DNA of 64,000 nucleotides from positions 1 through 64,000 of IMG/VR virus record IMGVR_UViG_3300023115_000010. One strand, given 5' to 3'. The notes below the pieces were generated by a model. That model saw nothing but the letters and a program-made list of their open reading frames with translations, ran no database searches and had not been told where the DNA came from. Source of the DNA: a virus. Position numbers and translations under genes: made by a program. This document shows positions 4,849 to 25,300 of the stretch, in pieces. Positions within the stretch are counted from its first letter, which is position 1; each line of letters opens with the position of its first letter.

Positions 4849-5469
4849 ATGATGTTTCAACTACGTGAAAATCTAAGTTTTGACCAAGCTAGAATGGTCG
4901 TTGAGTCTGCCAACGAAGGCAAAGATCTTTACATGAAAGGTATTTGCATTCAAGGCGGCGTAAAAAACGCTAACCAGCGTGTTTATCCCGTAGAAGAAAT
5001 TGGCAGGGCTGTCACCACGCTCAATGAGCAAATAAGCGGCGGTTACTCAGTTTTAGGCGAAGTTGATCATCCTGAAGGACTTAATATTAACCTTGATCGT
5101 GTATGTCACATGGTAACAGAAATGTGGATGGACGGACCAAATGGTTACGGAAAACTAAAAATCCTACCAACTCCGATGGGAGGCCTAGTAAAAACAATGC
5201 TAGAAAGCGGCGTTAAACTAGGTGTCTCATCTAGAGGTAGCGGTGAAGTAAACGAGTCCGGAGATGTTTCGGGCTTTGAAATAATCACTGTGGACGTTGT
5301 GGCTCAGCCCAGCGCCCCCGGTGCGTATCCTACACCAATTTACGAGCATATAATGAACGAAAAAGGTGGATACAAGGCATTATTAACTTCTAAAGAAGTA
5401 ACAGGCGACCCAAAGGCAAAAAAATACATCAAAGAGAGCTTATTAGATATAATAAGCAGGCTCCAATAA
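4849..5469 (+). CDS. 21: Prohead core protease, gp21-like
   Basis: The 206-aa product matches the T4 gp21 serine protease, which cleaves core and capsid proteins after assembly. Visible motifs are 'GEVDHPEG' with the probable catalytic His74, 'GVSSRGSGEV' with the probable Ser at 127/128, and 'ITVDVVAQPSAPGA' with Asp149, a conserved segment in this family. Length is close to T4 gp21 (212 aa). Two ATGs lie in tandem at 4849/4852. Position between the acidic core protein and gp22 is the T4 order. Confidence 0.95.
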   Translation: MMFQLRENLSFDQARMVVESANEGKDLYMKGICIQGGVKNANQRVYPVEEIGRAVTTLNEQISGGYSVLGEVDHPEGLNINLDRVCHMVTEMWMDGPNGYGKLKILPTPMGGLVKTMLESGVKLGVSSRGSGEVNESGDVSGFEIITVDVVAQPSAPGAYPTPIYEHIMNEKGGYKALLTSKEVTGDPKAKKYIKESLLDIISRLQ

Positions 5470-6585: not shown

Positions 6586-7758
6586 ATGTCAGAACTATTA
6601 GAAAGTCGCTGGCAGGAGACCAAAGGTGCCCTAGTCGAAGGCCTTTCAGGCAACAAAAAAGCTGTTATGGAAACAACTCTTGAAAATACTCGTAAGCATT
6701 TGATGGAGACAGCAACAGCGGGTGCAACTTCTGCAGGTAACGTAGCAACATTAAACCGTGTGATTCTACCAGTAATCAGACGTGTTATGCCAACAGTGAT
6801 CGCGAACGAAATCGTTGGTGTTCAACCAATGACTGGTCCAGTTGGCCAGATTCACACATTGCGTGTACGCTATGCAGATGCGTTCACAGGTACAGCAGGT
6901 GGATCAACAACAGCAGGTGAAGAAGCACTTTCACCATTTAAAATTGCTGAAGGTTATTCAGGTAATGCAAATGGTAAAGCAGACGCAACTGCAACAAAAG
7001 AAGGTACAGCTGGTAATAGACTAAGCATCCAAATCTTGAAGCAAACTGTTGAAGCTAAATCACGTAAGCTATCAGCACGTTGGACATTTGAGTCAGCTCA
7101 AGACGCTCAGTCACAACACGGTATCGACGTAGAAGCAGAAATCATGGCAGCACTTGCACAAGAGATTACTGCTGAAATCGACCAAGAAGTACTACGTAGC
7201 CTAGCAACACTTGCAGGTACAGGTACAGACACATACAACCAAGCAGGTGTATCTGGTACAGCTACATTCGTTGGTGACGAACATGCAGCATTAGCGGTTC
7301 TAGTTAACCGTGCAGCAAACCGTATCGCACAACGTACACGTAGAGGCGCAGGTAACTGGGCTGTTGTATCACCAGCAATCTTAACAGTACTACAATCAGC
7401 AACAACATCAGCGTTTGCACGTACTACTGAAGGTTCATTTGAAGCACCAACAAACACAAAAATGGTTGGTACACTAAACAACGCAATGCGCATTTATGTT
7501 AACACATATGCAGACGACGATGATGTACTTGTAGGTTACAAAGGTTCATCTGAATCAGACGCAGCAGCATTCTACTGCCCATACATCCCATTGATGTCAA
7601 GCGGTGTTGTACTTGATCCAACAACATTCGAACCAGTCGTGAGCTTCATGACTCGTTACGGTTATGTTGAGCTTTCAAACACAGCGTCTTCACTTGGTAA
7701 CGCAGCTGACTACCTAGAAAAAGTAGAAGTTACTTCTGCAAACCTAAGCTTCAGCTAA
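6586..7758 (+). CDS. 23: Major capsid protein, gp23-like
   Basis: The 390-aa product shows the gp23 signature 'PTVIANEIVGVQPMTGPVGQ' followed by 'IHTLRVRYADAF', then 'LSARWTFESAQDAQSQHGID' and the C-terminal 'YGYVELSNTASSLGNAADYL'. It is shorter than T4 gp23 (521 aa), mostly through a reduced insertion domain. A possible gp21 cleavage site of the (L/I)xE type is L39-M40-E41, which would remove a 41-residue propeptide (inference). TAAAGGAG precedes the ATG, a strong ribosome site suited to the most abundant late protein. A terminator follows directly. Confidence 0.97.
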   Translation: MSELLESRWQETKGALVEGLSGNKKAVMETTLENTRKHLMETATAGATSAGNVATLNRVILPVIRRVMPTVIANEIVGVQPMTGPVGQIHTLRVRYADAFTGTAGGSTTAGEEALSPFKIAEGYSGNANGKADATATKEGTAGNRLSIQILKQTVEAKSRKLSARWTFESAQDAQSQHGIDVEAEIMAALAQEITAEIDQEVLRSLATLAGTGTDTYNQAGVSGTATFVGDEHAALAVLVNRAANRIAQRTRRGAGNWAVVSPAILTVLQSATTSAFARTTEGSFEAPTNTKMVGTLNNAMRIYVNTYADDDDVLVGYKGSSESDAAAFYCPYIPLMSSGVVLDPTTFEPVVSFMTRYGYVELSNTASSLGNAADYLEKVEVTSANLSFS

Positions 7759-7779
7759 GTTTTATTTTAAAAATAAGAA

Positions 7780-7805
7780 AAAAGGCTCTACGGGGCCTTT
7801 TTTTA
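7780..7805 (+). terminator. Intrinsic terminator after gp23
   Basis: AAAAGGC (7780-7786) pairs with GCCTTTT (7795-7801), followed by further T residues. It closes the capsid operon and separates it from the independent RNA unit downstream. Confidence 0.85.
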
Positions 7806-7826: not shown

Positions 7827-7855
7827 TTGACCTTAGCTTATTCTTTTGCTATATT
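7827..7855 (+). promoter_or_regulatory. Sigma70-type promoter for the RNA unit
   Basis: TTGACC (7827-7832), a 17-bp spacer and TATATT (7850-7855) form a near-consensus bacterial promoter. The predicted start is at about 7861-7862. No protein-coding frame of useful length follows; the next landmark is the terminator at 8079. Confidence 0.8.
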
Positions 7856-7860
7856 AAGTA

Positions 7861-8109
7861 CATAACAAAGACGACGGTCCGAGTTAGATAGTGCAAGGAA
7901 ACGATGCTTCACATAGGCATTAACTTGACTCACACGCTGTGGTGGCGCTGTAAGACTTTGGAGACAAGGCGTTGCAGAGAAAGTAGAACTAACCATTCTA
8001 TTGTGAGGTTGTGCTAGTTATGTAGACAGGATATGTCACGGCACTTGTAGGTAATCCTTAGTCCTACCTATCACTATTAAAAAAGGTCTACTACGGTAGG
8101 CCTTTTTTT
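7861..8109 (+). ncRNA. Putative stand-alone structured non-coding RNA next to gp23
   Basis: This stretch of about 245 nt between gp23 and the fibre genes has no credible reading frame. It is bounded by a sigma70-type promoter and an intrinsic terminator. Local pairing is extensive. TACATAAC (7859-7866) pairs exactly with GTTATGTA (8017-8024), closing a 5' domain. ATGC/GCAT (7904-7907/7917-7920) and CACA-CGC-TGTG (7931-7941) form internal hairpins. GACA-GGATA-TGTC (about 8025-8037) and GTAGG/CCTAC (about 8047/8063) form 3' hairpins. I do not recognise it as tmRNA, RNase P RNA, SRP RNA, tRNA or a named phage RNA. Function is unknown. An early host-regulating or antisense RNA is possible, and its promoter class suggests expression before late genes. 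Confidence 0.7.
8081..8109 (+). terminator. Intrinsic terminator of the RNA unit
   Basis: AAAAGGTCTA (8081-8090) pairs with TAGGCCTTTT (8097-8106) through a CTACGG loop, with one G-U pair, and a run of T residues follows. It defines the 3' end of the putative RNA. Confidence 0.85.
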
Positions 8110-8139
8110 ACGGACATTATAACCCATTTTTACGAAAAA

Positions 8140-8147
8140 GATAAATA
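8140..8147 (+). promoter_or_regulatory. T4-like late promoter (GATAAATA)
   Basis: GATAAATAC is the full late element of this genome. It is followed by a leader of about 84 nt with two hairpins (CCTCA-CGA-TGAGG and GGGG-ACCCAA-CCCC) and then AAGGAG before the ATG at 8232. It starts the fibre gene block. Confidence 0.75.
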
Positions 8148-8231
8148 CTTATGTCAAGAGGAGAGCCTCACGATGAGGACTTATGGGGACCCAACCCCGT
8201 AGACCTAGAACGTCAACATAAGGAGAAAACA

Positions 8232-22300: not shown

Positions 22301-25300
22301 CAGGTATATTTACAATAGTAGGACACGGATTTACAAATCTACAAAAAGTTGTTTATAGTGCCAATGGCAATACTATTATTGGTGGTTTAGATGATGAACA
22401 AACTTACTATGTGAATATTATTAACGAAGATGAATTTACACTTGCATATGACGACGGTGGCGAGTTTGAAGTAACAATCTTTAGTAACTTTAGTAACACA
22501 GGAAACCATATATTCAAAAGTAATATTATTGAGTTTTTTGTTGAAGAAGTATTGTCAAGTCATACAACATACCAAACTCTTGAACTAGAATCTGGTGCAG
22601 AAAGTTATAACTTTGTGCCAGGAAGAGCAATCACAGGTTCAACAGGTGCTAACAATAACAGTGCTATTGTAGCAAGTTGGATTCCTGCAGATCGCTTACT
22701 TGTTGTAAGTATTGAAGAAGTTACAGTCGGCTCAAGCACATTACGTATTCAGTTTGATGCAACTAGCACTATTACAGAAGACCATAGTGGCACACCTAAC
22801 ACAAATATTGGTGTAAACGAAGTTTCCACTAAACGTGGTTTGAGTACAGCAACATTTAGCATCACTGCTACAGACGGAAGTAGTAGTGTTACAAACACTA
22901 TCAACCTTCCAGAGAAGCAACTTTGGTTCCACAGACCTAGTATTGTTAACAGTTCTGCACACACTTGGGAATATGCAGGTTCGGGTACAGACTACAACGC
23001 TCTACCACAAAACGGCGGTAATACAAGAGAAGAATACGAACAGTTTGAAGAACTGCCAGGACGTTGCTACTCATCGGGTACAAACGAACTTGGTGACTTT
23101 AAAGTTGGTGACTTTATTACAGCGTTCAACAGAACTGGTAACATTACCTTTAGAAACAAAGTGCAGGTTGATGAACTTGACGCTTTGAAACTTAGTGTTA
23201 GTGATGTTGCTATTGAAGAAATATCAACTGATGTTAACTTAGGTGATGACGAAATAGGCGGCGCAAGCAACAATCGTTTGAGTACTCAGCTTGCTGTTAG
23301 AAGCTTCTTGTCAAACAGACTAGGTGGTTTTATTGACAAGACAGTTAGTTCTGCTGCTGTTCCGGGTGCTATTGTACAGCTCAATGTTAACGGTCAGCTT
23401 AACGCAGACTTGATTCCTGCTACTAGACAGTTTACAAACACAAATACCAAAGGATATCGATCTAGATTAGAACAAATTGAAGATATTCCGGCAGTTGACT
23501 TGAAAGCTGGTGACATTGGTACTGAAGAATACGAACAGGTAGAACTTAACTTATCTGGAACTATTACAGCAAGCGACGGCGATACTATTACACAACCAGG
23601 AGTAACTGGTGCAACTGCTTATGCTAAAGGTGATTTTTCTCTCAGTACTAATATTCTTGTTGCTACAATCGGAGAAGCATGGGATAAAACAGATGATAGC
23701 ACTGGCGATCCTTGGGAAGTAAGTGCTGGAAATATCTATGTAAATGGCGTAGACAGCGGAGTAAATATTACTTCAAAAGGTGTAAGTAGTGAAATTATTG
23801 ATAACTACTTCTTACGTAGCAGTAACAGTAGCCAGTATTTAATACTTGATAGCGACGATACTTATACATTTACTATTGCAACTATTACAGATGTAAGTAG
23901 AAGTGGAAATATTGCGACTATAACAACTAGCGGAGCACATAATATTAATGTGGACAACAACGTAAAAGTTGCAGTTGATGGCGATTCTACCTATAACCAA
24001 AACGGTTTGGTTTTAAGTGTTCCTACTACAACAACATTTACTATTGCAAACACAGGCGACGACGAAGCTTCAAAATCAGTAACTGGTACTGCAAATACTA
24101 TTGTAACAAGTGCTGATGGTAACGCCCAAGGTGCTGTTACAGAGTTACGTGAAGGTATTGCAGCAAGTGTAGATAACGCTAACATTACAACTGGTAGCTT
24201 GTACACTCCTACAACTGGATCGGTAATATACGAAAATGTAAGTATGACAAGCGTTACTGGATCTGGTACAGGTGCAAAAGCCAACATCACAGTGCAGGCT
24301 GGTGCTGTTACCGATGTTGACTTAACAAGAGGTGGTACAGGATATGTGGCAGGTGATTTGTTAGGTGCAAATGCTAGTGACATTGGCGGCACAGGAAGTG
24401 GATTCCAGATTGAAATATCTGCTATTGAAGATAGAGCGTATGTAGACATCTTAGGAGGCGAACTATTTGTTGCTAGTGCATCGAGTATTGACTTTGTTGA
24501 AGATAATACAGCAGTGCAAAATTCTAATGATATTAACTTTGATGACACTATTAGTCATAACTTCCTAGCTGGTACAACAGGCGGCGGCGGTGCAGTAAAC
24601 TATACAGATAGTAGAGTAAGTGTCACAGCTCACGGATTTTCAAATGGCGATCCAGTAACATATGATACATTAGGAAATGTTGCAATCGGCGGATTGTTAA
24701 ACGGTAATGTTTATTATATTAAAGTTGTTGATGATGACACCTTTGAGGTATATGACGACTTTAGTTTAAATACTCAGATAACTTTCTTAAGTACACCTGC
24801 TAACAACAACCACAACTTTACTAGATACACTGTAAACTTAACTGATAACAGTGTTGTCGTAGTAGGTCATGGATTTACAACAGGTGATGCTATAAGACTT
24901 GTATCACTGGAAGATGGTTCAACTAGCAACGCATTGCCAACTGTGAATGGCACAGAGATTGCAAGTGGTGCAAGATTCTTTGTAGGAAGTGTCACACTTA
25001 ACTCATTTACTATTCATGCTCTACGTTCAGACGCACTAAGCAGTATCAATGGACTAGTTACAAACGCTAGAGATATTGGCACTAATGGTGTAGGTAGTGC
25101 AAGAGTTATTAGAAATAATGTTCAAGTAAATGCTATTGTTAACACCTCAAGTAGATTGATTGCAAACTGGAACACTCTTGCTGTTACAAACATTGACGCA
25201 GAAAATATTATTTCTGGAACAATATCTCCAAGTAGACTTGGTGCAAGTGGGGTTGCTAATACTGAGACAGCATTGTTTGGTAACAGTGAATACAAGGTTG

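Follow-up and report, generated by a model that had tools for sequence, protein, structure and literature searches.

The segment between gp23 and the fibre operon of this marine T4-like phage is probably a free-standing gene, with its own promoter and terminator, for an early, stable and trans-acting RNA of the manA family (Rfam RF01745). The family itself was already known; what is new here is its stand-alone anatomy. As a structured RNA, manA has good support, and ocean phages commonly carry it; research so far has sought its ligand and the gene downstream. Weinberg (2010) judged it to be cis-regulatory (Y) and probably a riboswitch (y) (PMC2864571), and the paper on phage S-CREM1 lists it as cis-regulatory (PMC9964418). 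In a literature search, we found no paper treating manA as a stand-alone gene.

The DNA analyzed was a window of 64,000 nt, part of an 87,751-base IMG/VR virus record. The gp23 of the window was 66 to 72% identical to those of the cultured jumbo phages Vibrio phage 2.275.O, PA5oct, GAP32, and 121Q, and its stop codon is at 7758. An earlier note on this DNA had described a 391-bp gene-free gap after gp23 that contained a promoter, a structured segment and an intrinsic terminator and was followed by a separate late promoter at 8140. All four signals were present (Table 1). Promoter-like sites with at least 10 of 12 matches numbered just two within 5 kb, TTGACC-17-TATATT among them, and the segment from 7858 to 8112 folded better than its shuffles (z, −2.45; 4/200). 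The gap was also real, but it extends to about 8231: the most likely start codon of the following gene is ATG 8232, preceded by AAGGAG, rather than 8151, because the next-ORF family of the relatives begins at the same MGRP residues. The interval was filled by a freshwater-2 element (RF02980; 8164 to 8234, + strand), which scored near the threshold (47.3 versus a cut-off of 49.9). The same element scored above the cut-off, at 54 to 73 bits, in the relatives L032 (4774 to 4857), L023 (6624 to 6706) and L082 (6702 to 6772). In these relatives, as in the window, it lies in the 5' UTR of the gene after manA.

Table 1. Coordinates of the RNA gene, its helices and its flanking signals in the window
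Feature	Positions	Strand	Remarks
Intrinsic terminator after gp23	7777-7804	+	12-pair stem and T-run; insulates gp23 from the RNA gene
Sigma70-type promoter of the RNA, TTGACC-17-TATATT	7827-7855	+	Equivalent in 73/83 window-type RNAs
manA-family RNA	7860-8077	+	Rfam RF01745 match, 7868-8077; own model R1, 7860-8077
P1, 5' hairpin (AAC/GTT, GAC/GTC)	7864-7885	+	68-84% of cells paired; both sides vary in 6/6 pairs
P2, closing helix, 5' strand GATAG	7887-7891	+	Partner CTATC, 8068-8072; GGGAG/CTCCC in cyanophages
P3, arm CAAG/CTTG and inner hairpin	7894-7927	+	Covariation
P4 domain (CTCACA 7929-7934/TGTGAG 8002-8007)	7929-8007	+	Encloses hairpins P5, P6, and P7; covariation
P5 loop, TGGT	7940-7943	+	Kissing loop with P7 loop ACCA, 7992-7995; 96% of cells paired
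P8, hairpin GTGC/GCAC	8011-8044	+	97% paired; up to 6 pair types
P9, hairpin GTAGG/CCTAC	8047-8067	+	11-nt loop; abuts P2 3' strand; 100% paired
P2, closing helix, 3' strand CTATC	8068-8072	+	Covariation, 19-sequence alignment
Intrinsic terminator of the RNA gene	8079-8108	+	13 pairs; −16.7 kcal/mol; z, −7.1
Late-promoter-like GATAAATAC ahead of the fibre operon	8140-8148	+	NATAAATA in the survey of relatives

Membership in the manA family

The earlier note had recognized no named RNA class. The window RNA nevertheless matched Rfam manA over model positions 1 to 192 of 192, with 55.4 bits against a cut-off of 55.2 (E = 2.1e-11), and manA was the sole RNA above an Rfam cut-off in the whole 64-kb window. 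Because this margin is slim, membership needed independent support. A covariance model of 215 positions, R1, was therefore built solely from 19 window-type sequences. R1 detected the manA RNAs of P-SSM2, P-HM1, P-RSM4, S-SSM7, and S-CREM1 with 43 to 58 bits over all 215 positions, as well as that of pelagiphage Mosig (again all 215 positions) and most cyanophage-type environmental copies. Since the Rfam model finds the window RNA and R1 finds accepted manA RNAs, membership holds in both directions. As judged by these models, the window RNA is a member of manA; its clade is divergent and characteristic of this marine T4-like phage group.

Among 66 other gp23-bearing IMG/VR records, 22 had a full-length manA match, in every case downstream of gp23 and on the same strand. 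With the window, this gave 23 gp23-downstream copies, 9 of which pass the Rfam cut-off; most of the window's clade scores below it, and the window copy passes barely. The RNA also directly follows gp23 in P-HM1 and P-RSM4. Shared with Rfam manA are consensus positions 1 to 192, the helices, the GUGGUG and UAACCA loops, the 3' hairpin abutting the closing helix, and the occurrence in T4-like marine phages. The window clade differs in its divergent sequence, the closing helix included, in a longer P3 and, in much of the clade, in a helix between the 5' and 3' ends; the window copy has its own terminator and hence would be no leader. The known range of manA is thereby widened from cyanophages and pelagiphages to a group with a capsid closest to those of jumbo phages, which the Rfam model mostly misses.

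No manA was found in the cultured jumbo relatives searched (2.275.O, Phosso, PA5oct, GAP32, and 121Q). When the window RNA was compared with named phages by DNA similarity, just weak 39-base matches to Staphylococcus phages were obtained; with the RNA of relative L082, Mosig alone matched, over a single short and weakly similar stretch that the model confirmed as manA. Two genome-collection matches are filed as bacterial, one on a contig of Prochlorococcus SAG AG-418-C09 (L345) and one on a contig of a gammaproteobacterial MAG (L346), but both contigs carry T4-like phage genes beside manA (SbcC/SbcD-like, helicase; transaldolase, tail fibre). A bacterial chromosomal home was therefore rejected for them, and both look like phage sequence inside bacterial assemblies. 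No cellular copy was found among these two matches; the 2010 paper has manA copies from gammaproteobacteria as well.

Fold and covariation

Covariation was measured on an alignment of 19 sequences, with a structure of 51 pairs drawn on the window sequence. In this structure, 87.5% of the cells were paired (68.3% in shuffles), 39 of the 51 pairs changed on both sides (25.8 in shuffles), and the covariation score was 0.489 (0.167 in shuffles), with controls that ignore the relatedness of the copies. The signal was lost once the structure was slid by one column. Thus, compensatory changes among homologues, a test named in the earlier note, were abundant, and they maintain the consensus helices P1 to P9. 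In P4, all 6 pairs varied on both sides with 100% of the cells paired, and the variants CTCACA/TGTGAG, CTTGTT/AGCAAG, CTGTTT/AAACAG, and CTAGTA/TACTAG occurred without one broken pair. The loops of P5 and P7 covaried too, and three compensating variants (TGGT/ACC, TAGT/ACT, and TTGT/ACA) supported a loop-loop pseudoknot between GUGGUG and UAACCA. This covariation supports the pseudoknot that was marked uncertain in the 2010 paper, provided that it is the same one. Rfam 14 gives 48 significantly covarying pairs in its manA source alignment (PMC7779021). As read from the alignment, we regard the covariation of the manA fold as decisive.

Immediately beyond the two ends of the Rfam model, the flanking sequences were complementary across the clade (mean longest helix of 6.11, versus 5.21, with an sd of 0.11, for swapped flanks), as in ATAAGC/GCTTAT, TATATGC/GCATATA, and AATGCA/TGCATT; this terminal helix was weak in the window copy itself. 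The earlier note had instead paired TACATAAC with GTTATGTA. Such a pairing exists in the window, but just one of the 83 distinct homologues had GTTATGTA, and the complementarity at that place was no better than in shuffles. This long-range helix was therefore rejected. The pair is private to the window, with its 5' strand lying partly within hairpin P1 and its 3' strand within hairpin P8.

Signals flanking the RNA and the leader reading

About 175 phage copies of manA, of the window type and the cyanophage type, were surveyed among the matches listed. The cyanophage-type set was chosen by a core pattern, and the copies are related, so that the counts are not independent events. A promoter was scored when at least 10 of 12 positions matched just upstream of the RNA, against shuffles that kept base composition only. 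Among the matches listed, one was found at a near-fixed distance in 73 of the 83 distinct window-type RNAs (shuffles, 50/1,660) and in 85 of the 91 distinct cyanophage-type RNAs (shuffles, 29/1,820). Every named phage checked had such a promoter, with the exception of S-CREM1, where manA is located between tRNA-Leu and tRNA-Asn. In P-HM1 (L097), P-SSM2 (L098), and P-RSM4 (L099), the −35 box TTGACA lies inside the terminator hairpin of the preceding gene, 20 to 50 nt 5' of manA. An equivalent of the gp23-side terminator was found in nearly all gp23-adjacent relatives. Between gp23 and manA, relative L082 has a match to the glutamine riboswitch (RF01739; 6233 to 6280, + strand).

On the 3' side, 47 of the 82 window-type copies had a terminator (shuffles, 3/246), 2 had a tRNA, 20 had a late promoter only, and 13 had none of these; the figures for the 91 cyanophage-type copies were 21, 6, 6, and 58, respectively, all among the matches listed. 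NATAAATA occurred at most 120 nt 3' of the RNA in 55 of the 82 window-type copies listed, compared to 2.4% of background windows. A tRNA gene directly 3' of manA was found in L028, L068, S-SSM7, S-CREM1, L264, L248, L296, and L226, i.e., in 8 of the about 175 copies listed, with Gly and Asn types seen; the window copy has no such neighbor. The sole tRNA that ARAGORN predicted in the window (22857 to 22950, + strand) is a doubtful tRNA-Cys of 94 nt with the unusual anticodon aca. In S-SSM7, tRNA-Gly begins at the base after manA (0 nt). In S-CREM1, tRNA-Leu, manA, and tRNA-Asn are consecutive with at most 1 nt between them, and the annotation puts manA in the tRNA array despite its listing as cis-regulatory.

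The next ORFs belonged to at least 51 families. The largest was gp32, which in the window-type group mostly has a late promoter of its own. In a pelagiphage-like group (L188, L132, L200, L186, and others; HTVC008M, 5037 to 5296), manA lies 60 to 100 nt before gp32 (ssb), in most cases with the late promoter TATAAATA in between. A conserved hairpin of about 45 nt, GACCTAAGATGCAACT..GGGCAGA.GGTC, often followed by a T-run and absent from Rfam, was found directly 3' of manA in all 80 of the 80 distinct cyanophage copies with enough upstream sequence. The hairpin occurs, for example, in L265 (1978 to 2010) and L309 (6163 to 6195), both on the − strand, and at least 23 of the cyanophage-type loci end in it. 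This hairpin may be read as a manA-specific 3' module or as a decorated terminator.

These data bear on whether manA could be a cis-regulatory leader, in which it would be the aptamer and the hairpin at 8079 to 8108 a transcription attenuator controlling the fibre operon. The Rfam type Cis-reg and the candidate-riboswitch judgement of 2010 are consistent with this, the order promoter-domain-terminator-gene is the anatomy of a transcriptional riboswitch, and some copies that lack a terminator precede ORFs such as gp32 by 15 to 90 nt. However, a leader would occupy the 5' UTR of the gene it controls with no barrier, whereas a terminator and a late promoter intervene in the window and tRNA genes intervene elsewhere. 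A terminator-type riboswitch also needs an antiterminator, and no antiterminator signal was found: exchanging terminator arms between copies did not lower their match to the RNA (own arms, 12.0; swapped arms, 12.4; sd, 0.24), which argues against a riboswitch. Given the promoters, the terminators, tRNA genes or late promoters on the 3' side, the unrelated next-ORF families and this negative result, we consider a leader unlikely. The same comparisons contradict the Cis-reg label in the case of the window copy and the clade around it, and they weaken it for the family as a whole. Among the matches listed, neither a terminator nor a tRNA follows about 20 of the window-type copies and many of the cyanophage ones. 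Such copies may run on into mRNA (gp32/ssb, purL, talC, and others), where a leader role is possible, and read-through copies, such as those before gp32, may also act on that gene. An independent RNA gene, as the earlier note had proposed, is well supported by the promoter, the terminator and the tRNA neighbors in many homologues.

The earlier note had further suggested that the RNA acts on host RNA polymerase or in packaging. A 6S-like regulator or a packaging RNA would fit the host-type promoter and the position beside gp23 in window-type phages, P-HM1, and P-RSM4. We found no support for either, and hold both to be very improbable: the multi-branched junction of manA is unlike the single long, open-promoter-like hairpin of 6S RNA, and many phages carry manA away from gp23, near gp32, tRNAs, or purL. 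To our knowledge, no packaging RNA is known from T4-type motors. That the segment is a short mRNA or a remnant of the gp23 3' UTR with incidental structure, as the 37-aa ORF at 7904 to 8017 and the hypothetical proteins annotated over manA in some phages might suggest, is scarcely credible given the overwhelming base-pair covariation, the terminator between gp23 and the promoter, and the lack among homologues of a conserved small ORF, which the earlier note had named as a refutation (longest ORF, median of 33 aa versus 29 aa in shuffles; scattered starts; RNA lengths in all three frames). The annotated proteins that overlap manA, PHM1_121 of P-HM1 (112705 to 112881), SSSM7_180 of S-SSM7 (151441 to 151572), and gp008 of HTVC008M (4993 to 5163), are probably spurious.

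Proposed working and known systems

For the stand-alone gene, we propose that host RNA polymerase with a sigma70-type factor would transcribe manA from its own promoter and, in the window, stop at the terminator at 8079 to 8108; elsewhere, tRNA processing or a different terminator would generate the 3' end. The host-type promoter amid late genes, with terminators on both sides, points to an early RNA gene in a late region, and we infer that the transcript is made, probably early, and is stable. The flanking terminators and the separate late promoter would isolate it from the late gp23 and fibre transcripts. The RNA would fold into a compact, P2-closed domain with the P5-P7 loop-loop contact and act in trans as a stable structured RNA. 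It might work with the translation or tRNA machinery, or bind a host protein or RNA. The former is suggested by several phages in which manA adjoins tRNA genes or lies among them and by the T-arm-like hairpin on the closing helix, which might loosely be likened to a T-arm stacked on an acceptor stem. Should manA prove to be an early RNA in its own right in marine phages related to T4, a different experimental approach would be suitable, for which the phages P-HM1, P-SSM2, P-RSM4, S-SSM7, S-CREM1, and HTVC008M are culturable.

Other structured RNAs of T4-like cyanophages are likewise filed as cis-regulatory, namely, wcaG, which neighbors manA in S-CREM1, and PhotoRC-II, but they are separate Rfam families without a match in the window. 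T4 itself encodes RNA C and RNA D, two stable RNAs of its tRNA cluster whose function is unknown. manA is likened to them by description, whereas sizes and position differ.

GOLLD and ROOL are phage RNAs of unknown function that are often found near tRNA islands and are held together by kissing loops (PMC12286853). Their covariance models gave no match in the window, and manA, at about 190 to 245 nt, is far smaller. It resembles them as a stand-alone phage RNA with kissing loops that lies near tRNA genes in the copies noted above. A tentative extension, which we rate below the reading of the window copy and as somewhat doubtful, is that manA as a whole is a phage-specific class of RNAs that are made early from genes of their own, act in trans and move together with tRNA genes; they would act on the translation or tRNA machinery or else, through their conserved kissing loops, form an RNA assembly as GOLLD and ROOL do. 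In genomic habit, GOLLD and ROOL appear comparable to manA and would be its nearest precedent.
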